Source: a bacterium (lineage in GTDB: Bacteria; Vulcanimicrobiota; Xenobia; Xenobiales; JADMJV01). From it: a stretch of 47,443 nt of DNA. The DNA lies in NCBI GenBank assembly GCA_030149525.1, contig JASBRJ010000058.1:1-47443 (forward strand), given 5' to 3'. The position numbers and the translations under genes were made by a program. How positions within the stretch are numbered: the first letter of the stretch is position 1; every line of letters starts with the position of its first letter. Positions 8,067 through 17,153 of the stretch are shown here, piece after piece. The notes beneath the pieces were generated by a model. It saw nothing but the letters and a program-made list of their open reading frames with translations, made no database searches and was not told the origin of the DNA.

Positions 8067-11000
8067 ATGGGATTCGTGAGCACTGCTTGTTGGAAAATGA
8101 AGAGAATAGGATTGACGCTTGGAATCGGCGTCTTATTGTCGGGGACTGCTGTCTCCAACCCGAACGGCCCCCAAGTCCGCCACGGACAAGTCAATTATAG
8201 TCCTGGCTCCCAGGCTCAAATTCAGCAACTCACCGATAAGGCGATCGTCGACTGGCAGTCTTTTTCTATAGGAGCGTCCGAATCCTTACGGATTCTTCAA
8301 CCAGGTCAACTGTCCGTGCTTCTCAATCGAGTTACCGGGGGCGATCCTTCACTCATTCTCGGCAGCCTAACTGCCAACGGCCAGGTCTTTCTCATCAATC
8401 CCGGCGGAATTCTTTTCGGGCCGAATTCTTCGGTCAATGTGGGTGGGTTGGTCGCTTCCACCCTAAACATCACGGATCAAGACTTTCTAGCCGGCAAGTA
8501 CGACTTCTCCGCCGTCTCAGGTCAAGACCTGGCCGCTGTCGTCAACCAGGGAAGAATTGAGATAACCAACGGAGGCTATGCTGTCCTGATAGGCCCCACC
8601 GTCCTGAACGAAGGCACCATTATCGCCCGTGCGGGGAACGTGGTTCTGGCCGGAGGTGAGCAAGCCACCCTAAACCTCGACGGCCAAGACCTCGTTCACT
8701 ACGCCCTCAAAGAGAAAGTGGGAGAGGGTACGGTTCTTTTGGCGCCGGGCATGTTAAGCGACACAATGGCCGATATCTTTGGAGTGAATCCTTCCTTACG
8801 AGCCGACTCCCTGGTCCGACTCCCGGACGGCTCCGTCAAAATGCTCCGCTCCTCGGGCACCGCCGTGCAGGCCGGGACCGTGAATGTCGATGGTACCGAC
8901 GGCCAGAAAGCCGGCTCGATTGCCCTGGATTCTACCGATGTCACGATTGTAGGACGGGATTCGGTGACCACGGCGTCAGGTCATGGCAAACTCAGCAGCG
9001 GGGGAGAAATCCTGGTGCTCTCCTCTATGGACGGATTGGAAACCTCGCGAGGATTTACCGACGTTCAGTCCGGGGCTCTTCTGTCTGTGGCCGGTGGGCA
9101 GTCAGGCGACGGCGGATTCGTGGAGGTGAGCGGAGACGGAGTCAATCTCCTGGGCGAGGTCGATCTGTCGGCAACCGACGGCGCGGTCGGAACCTTCTTA
9201 CTCGACCCGGTGGTGGTAACCATCGTGGATGGGAACAACGCTCCCACCAGCAACCCTGCAACCGCCAACACGACGATCGGTGACCAGTGGTTCAGCACCC
9301 TGACCGGTGACCTCGTCCTTCAGAGCACTGGAGATATCATCTTCGATGCCTCTGCCCCCGGCGGAGTGGCAGGCGACGGTCAGAACGTAGTGGCTTTCGG
9401 CAACGACCTGACCCTTCAAGCAGGAAATGACGGACTCAACGGCCCCGGCGTCATCGAATTCAAGAATGACGGATGGCGTATAACCGGAAACGGAGGGAAC
9501 GCCCTGGACAATCTCAGGATAATCGCACCGGGCAACATTTCCCTTGGAGACGCGACCCTTGAGATGGGCGACAGCTTTTTTGTGCTGGATTCCGAGGCCG
9601 CCATCGACATGGGCACAGCGACTGTGACCATGGCACCTATTTCGAACGTCAATGCGTTGGTCTTAGAATCGGTCGGACTGCTCAACATGAACGCCTCGAA
9701 CATCGTTGTCAACGGAACGGGTGGCGGAGGCAACAAAGGTCTCAGAATAACCTCAAGCGCCGGAGACATTGAGCTGGGAAGCTCCGTCCTGAACTATAAC
9801 GACAGGCTCACCAACTCAGGCTCAAAAGAAAGTCGAATCAGTGCGGCCGGAGACATTCGCGCAAGTGGGACCCCGGACTGGTCTATTCTGGGCCGGGCGG
9901 ATATCGCGGCGGGCGGAAGCATCAACCTCCCCAACTTTGCCTTCGATAACCCACGCGATAGTGGAACCTCGACCAATTTTCGAACAACGACCGGAAGCAT
10001 CACGCTCGGCAACGGAGGCATCAACAACGGGCTGGATCTGACCGCCGTCACCACCCTGGATATCGTCCTGGAGTCGGCAGGAGGGGTGACCCTGAACAAC
10101 TTCGATATTAAGGTCAACGACCGATCCGATGTGAGCGTGACCGCAGTCGGCGACATCAACTTTTCGAACGTCAAGATCAACGAAGGTGCTCTGAACAACT
10201 CCACCGGCTTCGTGAGGCTCGACTCCACCGGGGGAGCCCTGAACCTGGGGAACTCGACCATCAGGGTAGAGCCGGTCAGTGAGTTCAACTCCCTGTTTCT
10301 TCAATCGGCAGGCACCTTAGATTTCGGGAGTTCAGACATCCGAGTGAATGGAGGCGGGGGCGGTTTTAACAAAGGGCTCAGGATAGCGTCCATCGGCTCC
10401 GACATTGACCTGGGCACCTCCAGCTTGTTCTTCAACGACGTGGTGACCTCGTCCGGCTCCTTGCTCAACCAAGTAACGGCCGCAGGCGACATTCGCTCGT
10501 CGGGAGCGGCCAACTGGCACATCGGCGGAACGACCACTTTCTCCGCTACAGGAAGTCTCGATCTCCCCAATTTCTCCTTGGACAACCCCGTGGCCGGCGG
10601 CTCATTTCAAAACTCCACCCGCCTTCAGGCCACCAACGGCAGCATCAATCTCGGCAACGGCGGCATCAACACCGGGCTAGATCTCACCACCTCCAACGCT
10701 TTGGACATTATTCTTGAGTCCGGCGATCAGGTCACGCTGAACAATTTCGATATGAAGGTCAACAACCGCAAGGATGTCAACATCACCGCAGCCGGTGACA
10801 TCCGCCTCACCGACGTGAACGTCAACGAGGGGGCGCTGGACAACTCCACCGGTGTGGTGAGCTTCAACTCCACCGGCGGAGCCCTGAACCTGGGGAATTC
10901 CACCATCAGGGTGGAGCCGGTCAGTGAGTTCAACTCCCTTTTCCTTCAATCGTCCGGCACCTTGGATCTGGGCAGCTCCGACATCCGAGTCGACGGAGTC

Positions 11001-14000
11001 GGTGGGGGCTTTAATAAGGGCCTCAGAATCGTCTCCACCACCTCGGACATCGACCTGGGCACCTCCAGCTTGTTTTTCAACGACGTGGTGACCTCGTCCG
11101 GCTCCTTGCTCAACCAGATTACGGCGTCGGGTAACATACGCTCTTCCGGGGCGGTGGACTGGCACATCGGCGGAACGACCACTTTCTCCGCCACAGGAAG
11201 CCTTGACCTCCCCGATTTCTCCTTCGACAACCCCGTGGCCGGCGGCTCCTTTCAAAACTCCACCCGCTTTCAGACCACCAACGGCAGCATCAATCTCGGC
11301 AACGGCGGCATCAACACCGGGTTGGACCTGACCACTGCCGACGCCCTGGATATCATCCTTGAGTCCGGCGACCAGGTGACACTGAATAATTTCGATATGA
11401 AGGTCAACAACCGAAAGGATGTCAACATCACCGCAGCCGGCGACATCCGCCTCACCGACGTCAACATCAACGAGGGGGCGCTGGACAACTCCACCGGTGT
11501 GGTGAGCTTCAACTCCACCGGCGGAGCCCTGAACCTGGGGAATTCCACCATCAGGGTGGAGCCGGTCAGTGAAAATATTGCTCTCTCTCTTCAATCGTCC
11601 GGAACCTTGGATCTAGGCAGCTCCGACATCCGAGTCGACGGAGTCGGAGGCAGCTTCAATAAAGGGCTCAGAATCGTTTCCACCGGCTCAGACGTTGACC
11701 TGGGGAGTTCTCAACTCGTCTTCAATGACGTGGTCACCTCCTCGGGCTCCTCTCTCAACCAGATAACAGCAGCCGGGGATATCCTCACAACCGGGGTCGC
11801 CGATTGGCAGGTTGGCGGCAGGGTCGACTTTGTGGCCAATGGGGCTATCGATCTCGACGGTTTCTCCCTGGACAACCCTTATGTAGGTGGAACAGGTAAC
11901 GGTCCCAGCAGATTCAGGGCTACCAACGGAGGCCTCAGCCTGAAAAACGGTGGCATCAACACCGGTCTCGACTTCACTACCGTGAACACCTTGGGCCTCA
12001 TCTTCGAATCGGGCGGAGTCACCAATCTCTCGGAATTCGACATCAATGTCGACAACGGCAACACCATCTCGCTCACTTCAGCCGGGAACGTCAGCATGAA
12101 CGGGGCGGATATCAATAGAAACTCTCCACCAGGCGGTGCCGGAGATATCAGCGTGTTTTCCGAAGCGGCTCTCAGTCTGGGTACGGGAACTCTCCGCTCC
12201 GACCGAGACATCGACCTCAAGGCGAGCGGAGTGCTCGATCTGGGAACCAAGGAGCTTTTCACTCCCCAGGTTCTGTTTCTATCTTCCAACACGGAAGTAC
12301 GGAGCAGTTCTAGTCATTTTCAGGCCCGAGACATCGAAATCTTCGGATTCAACCCGTCGACCAATGTGCGCGATCCTAACCGCGCGATTCCCAACGGAGT
12401 GGGGATCGGTTTGGCCACCCAAAACACCTCCGACACTATCGACCTAACCATCTTTAGCGACTCCGACATTGAAGTCATTCACAGTGGAAACGGGACACTC
12501 AACCTCGTGACAGCGGGTGGACCGCAGGCCATCCGTTCCACCGGCGGCGGAGTAAACATCGACGCAGGCAACGGAACCGTTCGCTTGAACAGTGCGGGCT
12601 CGGGGTTCGCCACAGTGCATGCGGACTCCGATGCGGTGGTTCAGGTCAAAGCGGCGCAGATCGTGGAGGCGAACGGTGGCAACCTCGATCTCTTTTCGGG
12701 GGGCGAGGTGATCGTCGGAGCAACCGTGTCAGCGGGGACGGCAGGCTCCGAACTGGAAGTCCAGGGTCGGAGTATCACCCTCGATCTCTCTCAGGCCGGT
12801 GGAGCGCAAGGTGCCCTTCGGATCATAGGGCCTAATGAGTTTCTCAAAGCCATCGGCAACAACTCAACAATATCCATCACCGACACCAATACAACCAACA
12901 GACTGAGTGTGGTGGACGATGCCGGGCGAGGCAGTCTCGATCTGGGTGAGCTCACCGCAACCGATATTCACTACGTCGACATGAACGGCGTGAAGATCAA
13001 CAGTGTCGTTCCCGGAAACGGAAAGACGCTTGCCATCGAAGTCCTGAACAACGGTGATATTATTGGCGGGGCAACCGTAGGCGCGGATCTCGATTTCGAT
13101 GGAAACCTGCTTCTCAAAGCCGACGGCGACATCGGCACCCAAGCGGCCCCTATTCGAGTGGAAGCCGGGACCGTCTCGGTTCAGGCCGGTTCGGATTCGG
13201 GGGACGAGATTCATCTCTCCAGTCGAAGTGATGCTTTGGTGATTGCGGATGTCCAACTGCAGAATCATCGTAATGAAGTTGTGGCTCAAGGCCAAGGAGT
13301 TCGCGGAGGCGGTGATATCGAAATCCGCATGGAGGGAACGAGTCAAGCTCTCCTGGATCAGCGAAGTACTCTTCAATCCACCAACGGGAGTGTGGGGATT
13401 TCTTTGCAAAACGGGAGCATTTCCCAACAGGCCGGAAGCACCATTGCGGCCGGGAACACGGTGGCCTTCAGCCTGCCCGGTGACGTGGGCACCTTCGATT
13501 CCGGAACCGCCTCGGAAGTCTCCATCCAAGCTTCTTCAGTCGTTCTGGACGTCGGCGGAGACGCCATTCTGCAGCAGGCGTCGGGCGATTTGACCGTGGA
13601 GTCTCAAGCCGTTGTGGGAGGCACCACATACACCGCCTCTGCCAACGGTCAGGACCGGCGCATACGGGTGGCAAACGGTTCTCTCACAGTGAATTCGGAT
13701 ATCACCGCCACCGGTGAGACTGCGCTTGTGACCGGCACCGGCTCCGTTCTTTCTCAGGGAACCGGGGGCGGGAATATTGTTTTGAACGGCAACGTCACAT
13801 CGGGAACCAGTCTGGTCGTTCTGGCTGGAGGTGATGTGACTCAACAATCGGGCAACCTGGTAGCCCCACAACTCGGTTTAGGAAGTGTGACCGGAACGAT
13901 CGGTTCGAACGCCGATCCAATCAATATTCAAACCGACCAGCTGGCCATCAACCCGCTGGCTGGTTCTGTGGCCGATCCGAACGGCTTTGTGAACGTTGCT

Positions 14001-14333
14001 CAGGTTGGGGCTGTGGGAGTGACCGTCCAACAAGGAGCGCCCTTGCCCGATCCACCGCCAACGCCCCAGCCTCCAACTCCCGGACCGCCTCCAACTCCCA
14101 CACCCGAGCCGGGAGAGATCCTAAGCCCCGGCAATTCAGTAGGCTTCGACAACCTTCCTGAACTGGGAGTGAACGAGAGTCCGGTTCTTGCTCAAAACAA
14201 CACTCAACTCATCGATGAGGCGTTGCAAATACTCCTGGAACTCGATGTCGCGACCGTGGTAGAGGTGGACCCAACCATTCCGCCCATCCAGATCACCGAC
14301 GAGGACTATCTTCAGAAAAAGTTTCGACGTTAA
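8067..14333 (+). CDS. Giant FHA-like two-partner-secretion exoprotein with tandem repeats
   Basis: A 2,088-residue predicted exported beta-helix protein. A signal peptide is visible (KRIGLTLGIGVLLSGTAVS). The start may be ATG 8067 (GAAAGG eight bases upstream) or ATG 8097 (MKRIG). Residues about 31-160 are a haemagglutination-activity/TPS domain, with NRVTGGDPS near 88 and VFLINPGGILFGPNSS and VNVGGLVAST near 108-133. Such domains guide export through a TpsB outer-membrane pore. The rest is Gly/Ser/Asn/Asp-rich repeats with almost no Cys, including four long tandem units (9606-12173). Residues about 1,990-2,015 are Pro-rich, followed by a short acidic tail ending KKFRR. No TpsB gene is in the window. 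A role as a surface adhesin is likely from the family but unproven. Confidence 0.88.
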   Translation: MGFVSTACWKMKRIGLTLGIGVLLSGTAVSNPNGPQVRHGQVNYSPGSQAQIQQLTDKAIVDWQSFSIGASESLRILQPGQLSVLLNRVTGGDPSLILGSLTANGQVFLINPGGILFGPNSSVNVGGLVASTLNITDQDFLAGKYDFSAVSGQDLAAVVNQGRIEITNGGYAVLIGPTVLNEGTIIARAGNVVLAGGEQATLNLDGQDLVHYALKEKVGEGTVLLAPGMLSDTMADIFGVNPSLRADSLVRLPDGSVKMLRSSGTAVQAGTVNVDGTDGQKAGSIALDSTDVTIVGRDSVTTASGHGKLSSGGEILVLSSMDGLETSRGFTDVQSGALLSVAGGQSGDGGFVEVSGDGVNLLGEVDLSATDGAVGTFLLDPVVVTIVDGNNAPTSNPATANTTIGDQWFSTLTGDLVLQSTGDIIFDASAPGGVAGDGQNVVAFGNDLTLQAGNDGLNGPGVIEFKNDGWRITGNGGNALDNLRIIAPGNISLGDATLEMGDSFFVLDSEAAIDMGTATVTMAPISNVNALVLESVGLLNMNASNIVVNGTGGGGNKGLRITSSAGDIELGSSVLNYNDRLTNSGSKESRISAAGDIRASGTPDWSILGRADIAAGGSINLPNFAFDNPRDSGTSTNFRTTTGSITLGNGGINNGLDLTAVTTLDIVLESAGGVTLNNFDIKVNDRSDVSVTAVGDINFSNVKINEGALNNSTGFVRLDSTGGALNLGNSTIRVEPVSEFNSLFLQSAGTLDFGSSDIRVNGGGGGFNKGLRIASIGSDIDLGTSSLFFNDVVTSSGSLLNQVTAAGDIRSSGAANWHIGGTTTFSATGSLDLPNFSLDNPVAGGSFQNSTRLQATNGSINLGNGGINTGLDLTTSNALDIILESGDQVTLNNFDMKVNNRKDVNITAAGDIRLTDVNVNEGALDNSTGVVSFNSTGGALNLGNSTIRVEPVSEFNSLFLQSSGTLDLGSSDIRVDGVGGGFNKGLRIVSTTSDIDLGTSSLFFNDVVTSSGSLLNQITASGNIRSSGAVDWHIGGTTTFSATGSLDLPDFSFDNPVAGGSFQNSTRFQTTNGSINLGNGGINTGLDLTTADALDIILESGDQVTLNNFDMKVNNRKDVNITAAGDIRLTDVNINEGALDNSTGVVSFNSTGGALNLGNSTIRVEPVSENIALSLQSSGTLDLGSSDIRVDGVGGSFNKGLRIVSTGSDVDLGSSQLVFNDVVTSSGSSLNQITAAGDILTTGVADWQVGGRVDFVANGAIDLDGFSLDNPYVGGTGNGPSRFRATNGGLSLKNGGINTGLDFTTVNTLGLIFESGGVTNLSEFDINVDNGNTISLTSAGNVSMNGADINRNSPPGGAGDISVFSEAALSLGTGTLRSDRDIDLKASGVLDLGTKELFTPQVLFLSSNTEVRSSSSHFQARDIEIFGFNPSTNVRDPNRAIPNGVGIGLATQNTSDTIDLTIFSDSDIEVIHSGNGTLNLVTAGGPQAIRSTGGGVNIDAGNGTVRLNSAGSGFATVHADSDAVVQVKAAQIVEANGGNLDLFSGGEVIVGATVSAGTAGSELEVQGRSITLDLSQAGGAQGALRIIGPNEFLKAIGNNSTISITDTNTTNRLSVVDDAGRGSLDLGELTATDIHYVDMNGVKINSVVPGNGKTLAIEVLNNGDIIGGATVGADLDFDGNLLLKADGDIGTQAAPIRVEAGTVSVQAGSDSGDEIHLSSRSDALVIADVQLQNHRNEVVAQGQGVRGGGDIEIRMEGTSQALLDQRSTLQSTNGSVGISLQNGSISQQAGSTIAAGNTVAFSLPGDVGTFDSGTASEVSIQASSVVLDVGGDAILQQASGDLTVESQAVVGGTTYTASANGQDRRIRVANGSLTVNSDITATGETALVTGTGSVLSQGTGGGNIVLNGNVTSGTSLVVLAGGDVTQQSGNLVAPQLGLGSVTGTIGSNADPINIQTDQLAINPLAGSVADPNGFVNVAQVGAVGVTVQQGAPLPDPPPTPQPPTPGPPPTPTPEPGEILSPGNSVGFDNLPELGVNESPVLAQNNTQLIDEALQILLELDVATVVEVDPTIPPIQITDEDYLQKKFRR
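9606..10241 (+). repeat. Tandem repeat unit 1 of the exoprotein (212 codons, diverged)
   Basis: Begins at the D-M-G-T-A-T-V-T-M-A-P version of the unit and runs to the next N-L-G-N-S-T-I. It shares GGGNKGLRI, NLPNF, LGNGGIN and LNNFDIKVN with units 2-4 but has diverged most. Confidence 0.8.
10242..10886 (+). repeat. Tandem repeat unit 2 (645 bp, 215 codons)
   Basis: Starts NLGNSTIRVEPVSEFNS and contains GSSDIRVNG, NKGLRI, FFNDVVTSSGS, WHIGGTTTFSATGSLDLP, LGNGGINTGLDL, LNNFDMKVNNRKDVNITA and NEGALDNSTG. It lies in phase with the reading frame and is nearly identical to unit 3 over long stretches of DNA. Confidence 0.92.
10887..11531 (+). repeat. Tandem repeat unit 3 (645 bp, 215 codons)
   Basis: Same motifs and exactly the same length as unit 2. 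Most differences are synonymous or conservative, which suggests recent duplication or continuing gene conversion. Confidence 0.92.
11532..12173 (+). repeat. Tandem repeat unit 4 (642 bp, 214 codons)
   Basis: Begins NLGNSTIRVEPVSEN. The first quarter is close to unit 3 and the remainder is diverged (WQVGGRVDF, LKNGGINTGLDF). The array ends at LGTGTLRSD. Confidence 0.85.
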
Positions 14334-14465: not shown

Positions 14466-14759
14466 ATGGCTTATCGTCAGTTTCTACTCAAAGAGAGCGG
14501 TCATACTGTCCTTTGTGAATGGGATGCCCGGAGAGGGCATTGGAGGTGCAGCGCCGGTCCGGGCTCGCCCTATAACTTGCAAGTGGACACCCTGTCCGAG
14601 ACCGTGAGATCTATGAAAGCCGACGGCTTTGAAGAGCTGACGCCCAATTTGAGAAAAAGTGTCCGCTTTTCCAAATCGGAGCACACTTACGTGCCTATTT
14701 CCGATAGGGAACTTCCCGCGCCGCCTTTAGAGATACCGGTCTCTAGAAAGAAGCTCTAA
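14466..14759 (+). CDS. Hypothetical 97-residue protein
   Basis: A small soluble, basic protein of unknown family. It starts at ATG with GGGGGAT about eight bases upstream and a good promoter just before. The sequence begins MAYRQFLLKESGHTVLCEW and later has RGHWRCSAGPGSPYNLQV, a beta-rich look, then a helix (VDTLSETVRSMKADGFEEL) and a Pro-rich basic tail ending SRKKL. There are no membrane segments, and the only cysteines are single ones (C17 and C28), so a zinc site is unlikely. It converges on the Zn-ribbon gene, with the two stop codons overlapping by four bases. The clear promoter and ribosome site are the main reasons to accept it as a real gene. Confidence 0.7.
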   Translation: MAYRQFLLKESGHTVLCEWDARRGHWRCSAGPGSPYNLQVDTLSETVRSMKADGFEELTPNLRKSVRFSKSEHTYVPISDRELPAPPLEIPVSRKKL

Positions 14760-14962
14760 TTCTTCCGCATAGCGGAGAACTCGAGGGTCATCTCTTGCTT
14801 GAGGATCTGCTCTATCATCGACTGGTCTTTAAACAACTTAACGTTCCCCTCAACCATCCAAAATCTCTCTCCGCAGCACATACAGGCGAATTCTTTCACC
14901 TTCTTAGGGAGATCGAACATGGGAACCTTATGAAGAGAATTTCCACATCGAGCGCAGTCCAT
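14756..14962 (-). CDS. Small Zn-ribbon-like protein
   Basis: A 68-residue protein with C3-x-x-C6 near the N-terminus (MDCARCGN) and a second cluster C27-x-C29-C30-G (FACMCCGERFW). This matches a small zinc ribbon of the kind found in uncharacterised bacterial proteins. The C-terminal half is helical and charged. There is no clear ribosome site before ATG 14962, so the start is less certain than the gene. The stop overlaps that of the convergent 97-residue protein. It may act as a small nucleic-acid- or protein-binding factor, but this rests only on the cysteine pattern. Confidence 0.6.
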   Translation of the reverse strand: MDCARCGNSLHKVPMFDLPKKVKEFACMCCGERFWMVEGNVKLFKDQSMIEQILKQEMTLEFSAMRKN

Positions 14963-15105: not shown

Positions 15106-15852
15106 ATGAACAACAAGACTTTCTTTCTCGTGGCCCTCCTCTTGCTGAGCTTGGTTCTCCCGGCACCGGCACAATCAGCCTGCTTTATCTGCGGCTCGCA
15201 AAAATCGCTTCGAAGAATTCAGGTCGAAAAGCAAAACAAACTGATCTGTCACGACTGTCGAAACCAAGAGCAGAGATGCGATCTTTGCCGTCGAGCCTGC
15301 ACCCCGGAATACATGAGAGACGGTCGTCGCATCTGCCCCACCTGCAAAAACACCCGCATCCTGACTCAGGAACAGCTAGACGGTCTTTACGACAACGTGA
15401 AAAGCTTTCTCTCCCGAGACCCAGCGGGAGTAGTGGTCAACTTCACGCTCCCGGTCCAACTTGCCGACAAAGACGAGATTCAAACAAAGATGATTGAGGG
15501 CGGTCGTGCCATGGCCGTCCTGGGCTTCTACAGCCCTTACAATCCCGAGAAAATCTACATCCTCAGCGGGCAAACCGAGATCGATTCCGGGGCCACCATG
15601 GTTCATGAGTACACTCACGCCTGGCAGAGCCGCAATTGCCCCAGCCAGGACCGTGCCCTCAAGGAAGGCTTTGCTTCTTACATGGAATACCGCTATCTCG
15701 TTTCCAGAGGCCAGAAAAACAAAGCCATGAGTCTGACCAGAAAGAACGATCCCGACTACGGTGAGAGCCTGGCGAAACTTCTGGAAATGGAGAAAAAAGT
15801 GGGCGTTGCCGGGGTGGTGAAATACGCAACCACTCAGAAAGCCCTGCCTTAG
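15106..15852 (+). CDS. Exported DA1-like protein: LIM-type zinc domain plus HExxH peptidase
   Basis: A 248-residue protein with a Sec signal peptide (MNNKTFFLVALLLLSLVLPAPAQSA). Residues 26-86 carry a run of CxxC, HxxC and CxxC zinc ligands (CFICG, CHDC, CDLC, CPTC) arranged like the last LIM-like module of plant DA1. A linker with LDGLYDNVKSFL follows, then H167-E-Y-T-H171 and, 15 residues on, E187 in LKEGFASYMEY. This is a gluzincin-type metallopeptidase site, matching the DA1 signature HEMMHAW...EEG. Plant DA1 proteins are ubiquitin-activated peptidases; bacterial versions are known as a family but their substrates are not. The signal peptide predicts work outside the cytoplasm. The ribosome site is weak. 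The downstream convergent gene overlaps the stop by four bases. Confidence 0.85.
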   Translation: MNNKTFFLVALLLLSLVLPAPAQSACFICGSQKSLRRIQVEKQNKLICHDCRNQEQRCDLCRRACTPEYMRDGRRICPTCKNTRILTQEQLDGLYDNVKSFLSRDPAGVVVNFTLPVQLADKDEIQTKMIEGGRAMAVLGFYSPYNPEKIYILSGQTEIDSGATMVHEYTHAWQSRNCPSQDRALKEGFASYMEYRYLVSRGQKNKAMSLTRKNDPDYGESLAKLLEMEKKVGVAGVVKYATTQKALP

Positions 15853-16616
15853 CCCGGGAAAGGACAGTAGTAAACGTCGCCCCGTCGCAGGTTTCTCACT
15901 AGCAAAGGATGGGTTTCGGAGTCGGGCCAAAGCTCATTGATCCTTCGCAGACTTCCTTCAGGGTCGCCACACACTTCGGCTGAGGCGATTCTTGCCAGTG
16001 TCTTGAGATCGGCCTGGTGAGTTTCACCTAAAAACTGACTCAGAACCTGAGCCTTCACCGTGGAATGAACTCTCGCCAGGGCGGAGTAAGCCGCTTCAGA
16101 GTATCGAACCGTCGTGGCTGGAAGAAGAAACAGAAGTCGCACAACAGCTTCGAAGGTGAGAGACTTTAGAAAAATTCCCAACAGATGATGATCGAGAAGA
16201 GCGGTCAGATCGATAACGTCATGTTCTTCCAGAAGCTCATCTAGAACCCGGGCTACTCGGAGAGTCTCTTTGCTCGCCATTTCCGTCCACTCCTGGATCG
16301 GATCGGAGGTTTCGTCCCCGCCTAGAATGGCGACCACTTGAGAAATCCACTCCACGCGAACTTCCTCGTAATTGAAAGGAAGATTGCAGATCCCCAAAGT
16401 GATCATGGAGATACTCTCGGAATGCATATGCGAGAAAAGTCTGGCGGACAGGACAGGATCCAGAGCCATGAAGGCCACCGCCATCTTTTTCACGGCGGGC
16501 TCGGTAATCCAGTCTCTCTGAAGCTCAAAATACTCCGCGAGTGCGCTCCGCGTTGAGGTGTCTCCACCCATCACCAGATAAGCAGAAAAGTCCTGGGGCG
16601 ACGATTCAAATAGCAC
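15849..16616 (-). CDS. Hypothetical helical protein
   Basis: A 255-residue, all-helical, acidic protein starting at GTG with GGGAGGG five bases upstream, so the start is firm. It contains KKMAVAFMALDPVLSARLFSHM followed by SESISMITLGICNLP. This looks faintly like the N-terminal segment of FliG (KAAILLLxLGEDxAAEVLKHL...EV), and a second helical block (LLDHHLLGIFLKSLTFEAVV) could be a FliG- or HEAT-like repeat. The resemblance is too weak to name it, and no flagellar genes are nearby. It has no signal peptide and no membrane segment. A minus-strand TATAAT lies 25-30 bases before the start. Function unknown. Confidence 0.65.
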   Translation of the reverse strand: MLFESSPQDFSAYLVMGGDTSTRSALAEYFELQRDWITEPAVKKMAVAFMALDPVLSARLFSHMHSESISMITLGICNLPFNYEEVRVEWISQVVAILGGDETSDPIQEWTEMASKETLRVARVLDELLEEHDVIDLTALLDHHLLGIFLKSLTFEAVVRLLFLLPATTVRYSEAAYSALARVHSTVKAQVLSQFLGETHQADLKTLARIASAEVCGDPEGSLRRINELWPDSETHPLLVRNLRRGDVYYCPFPG

Positions 16617-16718: not shown

Positions 16719-17153
16719 GTGGACTACTGTGAACAATTCTTCTACAGCTTGAGGATGGGTAAGAACTCCCAAGCACGCGCGCTGCTGGACAACAATCCCG
16801 AACTCACCAACATGAAAGAAGACGGCATCGTGACGCCGCTCCATGTGGCTTCGAGGTATGGCCGCACGGAGCTTGCCGAGGTGCTGCTGGACCGGGGGGC
16901 CGATCTGGAAGCCCGAACCGGAGACACCGGTTCAACACCTTTGAAGTATGCCGTCTTCTTTGCTCAGACTGAGATGGTGAAGCTCCTACTCAAACGAGGA
17001 GCCGATGTGGAAAATCCGGGAGGGGGCTCTCGTACCCCATTGGAGTTGGCTCTGGGTGCCACCACACCCATGTTTCGCTCCATGGGAACGCCTGGGACGG
17101 ACCTGGACTACGCCCGGATTGCCAACATCCTGCGAAGTCGCTCGGTGCGTTGA
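16719..17153 (+). CDS. Ankyrin-repeat protein
   Basis: A 144-residue protein built of about three to four ankyrin repeats. The clearest are TPLHVASRYGRTELAEVLLDRGADLEAR and its successor beginning STPLKYAVFFAQTEMVKLLL and ending KRGADV, then TPLELAL. Each has the TPLH-type turn and the GAD loop that stack to make a protein-binding surface. There is no signal peptide. The GTG start at 16719 gives a complete cap helix (MDYCEQFFYSLRMGKNSQARALL); the ribosome site is not clear. It converges with the peroxygenase-like gene (four bases between stops). The partner protein is unknown. Fold assignment is secure, function is not. Confidence 0.85.
   Translation: MDYCEQFFYSLRMGKNSQARALLDNNPELTNMKEDGIVTPLHVASRYGRTELAEVLLDRGADLEARTGDTGSTPLKYAVFFAQTEMVKLLLKRGADVENPGGGSRTPLELALGATTPMFRSMGTPGTDLDYARIANILRSRSVR

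Follow-up and report, generated by a model that had tools for sequence, protein, structure and literature searches.

A predicted exported bacterial relative of plant DA1 with a LIM-like zinc module and a gluzincin-type peptidase domain

The DA1-related gene lies on the forward strand of the window, the whole stretch of 47,443 nucleotides that was analysed, and its parts are listed in Table 1. Its GC3 of 0.65, compared with 0.60 and 0.67 in two other genes, indicates a neighbour-like composition. An Rfam scan of the window gave no match, and a promoter and terminator scan returned signals at chance level. Upstream, at 8067-14333 on the forward strand, a gene encodes an exoprotein of 2088 aa that contains internal repeats and a domain for TPS secretion (PF05860, E 1e-31). 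It ends 0.77 kb before the DA1-related gene, and this neighbourhood is not conserved in relatives. A 68-aa ORF with two CxxC pairs (14756-14962, reverse strand) is divergent from the DA1-related gene and may encode a small zinc-ribbon protein. On the downstream side, an ORF on the reverse strand (15849-16616) shares 4 bases with the end of the DA1-related ORF; its product matches FliG_N below the threshold (22.9 of 25 bits). An ankyrin-repeat protein is encoded at 16719-17153 on the forward strand.

Table 1. Position of the DA1-related gene and its predicted parts in the window.
Feature	Coordinates	Strand	Basis and remarks
DA1-related ORF with predicted export, LIM-like and peptidase parts	15106..15852	+	248 aa plus stop; ATG start; 7 orthologues aligned
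Predicted Sec signal peptide, residues 1-22	15106..15171	+	Sequence by eye; home-made hydrophobicity rule, 7/7 orthologues
Putative LIM-like binuclear zinc module, residues 26-80, 6-residue linker	15181..15345	+	Alignment; LIM domains first among weak fold matches
Zinc-module pairs C26/C29, C48/C51, C58/C61, C77/C80	within 15181..15345	+	Sequence
Predicted gluzincin-type peptidase domain, residues 85-248	15358..15849	+	AF2 model pLDDT 86; VIA-align 2 Z 10.5
HEYTH, putative zinc/catalytic motif, residues 167-171	15604..15618	+	Sequence and alignments
E187, putative third zinc ligand, 15 residues after HEYTH	15664..15666	+	E in 105/105 aligned relatives
DPDYG motif, residues 215-219	15748..15762	+	Counterpart of DPIYGEG in bona fide bacterial DA1 proteins

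The N-terminus of the 248-aa protein, MNNKTFFLVALLLLSLVLPAPAQS, looks by eye like a signal peptide of the Sec type, probably cut after A22, between APA and QSA. A signal peptide had been claimed in a sequence-only reading of this DNA, and this claim is borne out by our reading by eye and by the hydrophobicity rule, which scored 7/7 orthologues as positive. On these features the protein is likely exported, a call we make with high confidence. The peptidase signature described earlier, HEYTH and a glutamate separated by exactly 15 residues, is present as claimed. Of the proposed ladder of CxxC and HxxC motifs, four CxxC pairs remain; HxxC is not a separate motif, because H49 lies within the second CxxC pair.

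Direct orthologues were found in 7/7 genomes of families f1 and f2, one per genome, and form one branch in two trees (SH-aLRT 98 and 96, the second tree lacking some of the seven). The single copy per genome, seen in all 7 genomes of these two families, suggests that the gene is resident and passed on vertically. In the alignment, all eight Cys, an RDGR motif, H167, E168, H171 and E187 are invariant in 7/7 orthologues, and the active site and Cys pattern are thus more than chance. Identity is 17-20 of 58 positions in the zinc module, with Cys and RDGR fixed, and 67-86 of 164-165 in the peptidase part. The low conservation of the module apart from Cys and RDGR fits a recognition surface.

The source genome (8.27 Mb, 97% complete) contains five family members, the window gene included. 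A family match at E ≤ 0.001 was obtained in 28/58 genomes (the source and 57 relatives), with 1 to 7 copies each; the family is present in 28/29 genomes outside families f10, f12, f15 and f16 and in 0/29 inside them. Further named relatives belong to Omnitrophota, Chloroflexota, Armatimonadetes and Planctomycetota. In the latter phyla that were sampled, 18/101 Chloroflexota and 7/99 Planctomycetota genomes have the family at E ≤ 1e-10, both samples including the genomes via which the phylum was reached. For the wider family we aligned 105 unique members out of 131 matches in loci. HExxH is intact in 104 of these, E168 and E187 are present in all 105, and the spacing from HExxH to E ranges from 12 to 22, mostly 15-18. 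The sequence-only reading had named a mutated HExxH in most close homologues as an argument against itself; HExxH is lost in 1/105, and this argument fails. Because the triad is conserved, the window protein is very likely a zinc peptidase. The lone exception, L048, reads RELGN with both active-site glutamates kept and, judged from this sequence, is likely a pseudo-enzyme. It belongs to an array of three DA1-related genes (L048/L070, G018:C40), the one in the array without HExxH.

The relationship to DA1 became apparent in profile comparisons. The window protein alone scored 12.5 bits (E 0.096) against the DA1-like family PF12315 and did not reach the curated cut-off of 25 bits; orthologue L009 scored 12.7 bits and L054 had no match at E 0.1. 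Its top single Pfam match was DUF6782 (21.2 bits, below the cut-off of that family). PF12315 matched 54/105 relatives at E ≤ 0.01, being the commonest Pfam family among them, and its cut-off was reached in 9/58 genomes. The search with the DA1-like family that had been proposed as a check thus picks up relatives and leaves the protein itself under the cut-off. The canonical LIM family (PF00412) matched 19/105 relatives at E ≤ 0.01 (best 8.1e-17) and had no match in the window protein at E ≤ 1. Pfam families up to E 1 included no UIM in the protein, and there is no space for one N-terminal of the module.

As a reference we used four bona fide bacterial DA1 proteins (L126, L147, L153 and L155) that match both LIM and PF12315 (58.6-71.5 bits). 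Using hhalign, the profile of the seven orthologues aligned to this reference at 98.7% (E 2e-16, 189 columns) over residues 52-248, i.e. from the last zinc pair(s) through the whole peptidase to the C-terminus, with the DPxYG motif near the C-terminus included. A 12-row profile gave 99.9% (E 7.3e-33, 314 columns). As a control, an M1 aminopeptidase of the same genome gave 83.9% (E 7.7e-6, 145 columns); note that this control is somewhat shallow because it is a single sequence. The linker between the two zinc sites has 6 residues in the query, in 9/9 module rows and in 4/4 bona fide bacterial DA1 proteins. In canonical LIM domains the two zinc sites are separated by 2 residues, and the zinc module is thus of the LIM-like type of DA1. 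In contrast to the window protein, which is probably exported and has one zinc module, the reference proteins carry a canonical LIM domain and no signal peptide by eye.

By profile, then, the link is real but distant: we place the window protein in an exported sister branch of DA1, not in DA1 proper. This outlying and presumably ubiquitin-free branch of the superfamily (gluzincin type, clan MA) is part of a large, little-described bacterial branch. Its earlier identification as DA1 holds as far as kinship, a LIM-like two-zinc module and an intact gluzincin peptidase are concerned. It does not hold for plain DA1, given the PF12315 score, the missing canonical LIM domain and UIM, and the predicted export.

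The AlphaFold2 model of the protein (12 rows) reached a pLDDT of 86.2 and a pTM of 0.76. With the whole model, Foldseek returned no strong match, the best being a weak match in fold to MATCAP (tubulin-tyrosine carboxypeptidase; E 0.029, VIA Z 9.2), a eukaryotic tubulin enzyme. VIA-align 2 on the Foldseek candidates placed the catalytic domains of M1 aminopeptidases and leukotriene A4 hydrolase (LTA4H) first (Z 10.5; 3q7j, 1h19), with an rmsd of 2.9-3.0 over 145-147 residues. The peptidase domain is thus predicted to be a gluzincin core, with HExxH...E on a thermolysin-like catalytic core. M1 enzymes have 18 residues between HExxH and E, in contrast to 15 in the window protein, which also lacks the M1 N-terminal domain; M1 enzymes in turn lack the zinc module. 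Modelled alone, the module reached a pLDDT of 78 and a pTM of 0.48. LIM domains led its Foldseek matches at E 0.085 and above, and its VIA-align LIM rows had Z 3.2 or less, which is consistent with a LIM-like fold but no proof of it. No DA1 structure was among the matches in PDB sequence and fold searches, a result that excludes nothing about a DA1 fold. Single-sequence PDB matches to FGF23 were dismissed as chance (E 0.19 or worse).

A comparison of the window neighbours with the loci of relatives revealed no conserved neighbour that would name a substrate. The orthologue in relatives from genus g2 has TatD and ThiF genes and a weakly PAD-like gene next to it, which look like housekeeping genes. 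These are not adjacent to it in the source genome or in G006, and a link between ThiF and a ubiquitin-like system was dropped as unsupported. Nothing is concluded from a search of the genome for E2 enzymes (PF00179), since its controls gave no match anywhere. Another locus of the source genome (L111, contig C11, 427-3092) holds a further DA1-related gene, whose product is exported and has six CxxC/H; ~60 bases behind it follows an M1 aminopeptidase ORF that points the same way.

From these features we infer an exported zinc metallopeptidase with a docking and/or gating module that works without ubiquitin, and with proteins of the bacterium itself as probable substrates, a reading that we favour with some reserve. 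The Sec signal peptide would carry the protein out of the cytoplasm. The catalytic zinc would be held by H167, H171 and E187, and E168 would activate water. The LIM-like module, with two putative zinc sites formed by eight Cys, may dock a substrate or partner and/or hold the peptidase latent, acting like the LIM-like domain of plant DA1 minus ubiquitin. Cleavage would most likely affect envelope or secreted proteins of the cell itself, at limited sites. A passage in Dong et al. 2017 (PMC5322733) reports that plant DA1 loses both ubiquitylation and peptidase activity when a Cys of its LIM-like domain is changed to Tyr, and for this reason gating or docking by the zinc module is the function that we moderately prefer. 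Activation by ubiquitin, however, does not transfer, because the protein has no UIM and is expected to be extracytoplasmic. Note that the CxxC pairs, if placed in an oxidising compartment, could be disulfide-bonded rather than zinc-bound.

An exported peptidase might instead serve peptide nutrition as a general scavenging enzyme, with the zinc module merely stabilising the fold. The proximity of the peptidase fold to M1/LTA4H aminopeptidases would suit this role, as would the position of the ladder-bearing paralogue of the same genome just upstream of an M1 aminopeptidase gene in the same orientation and the existence of module-less exported relatives. We nevertheless regard it as unlikely: no other part of an M1 enzyme is present in the window protein, and the retained eight-Cys module together with one copy per genome better suits a specific processing role. 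It is also conceivable, with rather lower probability, that the CxxC pairs switch between zinc-bound and disulfide states outside the cytoplasm and gate the enzyme as a zinc or redox sensor. The four pairs are kept in 7/7 exported orthologues, and the number of CxxC/H knuckles reaches 17 among relatives, of which some with a ladder are exported. However, the same module is found in Chloroflexota forms without a signal peptide, where no oxidising compartment is expected.

The sequence-only reading had suggested a host or prey target, and we found nothing in favour of one. A secreted effector acting on such a cell would be in line with the signal peptide and with the unrelated two-partner-secretion exoprotein gene 0.77 kb upstream. 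Yet Sec export alone crosses only the inner membrane, relatives do not share the exoprotein neighbour, neither an injection signal nor a polymorphic-toxin context was observed, and the orthologues are vertically kept, one per genome, with no patchiness. We therefore consider an effector highly improbable and, because of the vertically kept single copies, favour exported proteins of the cell itself as substrates. That the protein is no protease at all but binds zinc or serves as a scaffold, its gluzincin domain being a relic, is barely credible: pseudo-enzymes do arise in the family, as the L048 protein illustrates, but the other 104/105 relatives have an intact HExxH.

Plant DA1, known from the DA1/DAR family of Arabidopsis, limits organ size. 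It shares with the window protein the order of parts, a LIM-like region with four CxxC/H pairs and, after it, a clan MA peptidase with HExxH-x15-E. The window protein differs in having a signal peptide and neither UIMs nor a canonical LIM domain, in its PF12315 score below the cut-off and in that no activation by ubiquitin is expected. A passage in PMC8643629 places DA1 in MEROPS M102, and one in Dong et al. 2017 (PMC5322733) gives the active site of plant DA1 as HEMMHX15EE; the second Glu of the terminal EE is Gly in the window protein. The same paper notes, citing Burroughs 2011, a high similarity between the conserved C-terminal region of DA1 and proteins of Roseiflexus that have four CxxC/H pairs. 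Bacterial relatives of DA1 were thus already known, although a passage in a plant paper terms the DA1 family plant-specific (PMC4432951). Among titles and abstract openings we found no report of exported bacterial DA1-like proteins, and the exported, multi-copy radiation with a zinc ladder of none to 17 knuckles looks new. With the bacterial set the family becomes much wider, and it includes one bacterial lineage with multiple copies and many exported members. The latency of plant DA1 and the role of its LIM-like domain are left open in PMC5322733. A bacterial relative of ~226 residues in its mature form, having a single zinc module and lacking UIMs, would provide a simple test system for gating of the peptidase by the module and a candidate for the first structure in the DA1 superfamily.

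Across the family the ladder ranges from 0 to 17 CxxC/H knuckles, and some ladder-bearing relatives are exported. The survey of bacterial homologues for signal peptides that had been proposed extended beyond the seven orthologues: the hydrophobicity rule, which is crude and misses cases clear by eye (e.g. L018, L027, L030 and L063), detected a signal peptide in 28/48 members with ≥ 4 knuckles and in 31/57 with fewer, L002 being misclassed because the ladder counter gave it 0 knuckles although six CxxC/H are present. The same rule detected a signal peptide in 18/116 neighbouring ORFs with one start each, and the contrast to family members is inflated because these were allowed several starts. 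Many exported relatives are without any zinc module; the fold thus does not require the module, and the role of the module in gating is a putative one. The ladder-bearing Chloroflexota relatives among those displayed had no signal peptide by eye. A branch represented in the source genome by L005 lacks both the module and, by eye, a signal peptide, and begins with a conserved TGQSDF-like start. With 23 tree rows, it is represented in the majority of those genomes of the phylum that have the family, and is possibly a core gene.

Both trees nest the query among module-less exported relatives. In an AU test on a tree of 98 rows, from which 27 long or near-duplicate rows had been removed beforehand, a single module-less clade was not rejected (p 0.485). 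As this leaves one module-less clade standing, we make no claim that the zinc module was regained inside it. In a broader and tentative proposal, which we hold to be possible rather than probable, DA1-type peptidases would be an ancient bacterial radiation, largely extracytoplasmic and ubiquitin-free, with a zinc ladder as a modular regulator that can be expanded or lost in exported and cytosolic forms alike, and plant DA1 would derive from a cytosolic LIM-bearing bacterial branch. On this proposal, the window protein would exemplify ubiquitin-free gating, in which an extracytoplasmic LIM-like zinc module controls the peptidase. A DA1-related protein with 12 knuckles and no signal peptide (L061) is encoded by Candidatus Uabimicrobium amorphum, a phagocytosis-like planctomycete. 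In another locus (L078, G028:C41), one strand carries a cluster of four DA1-related genes, of which three are arranged almost head to tail.
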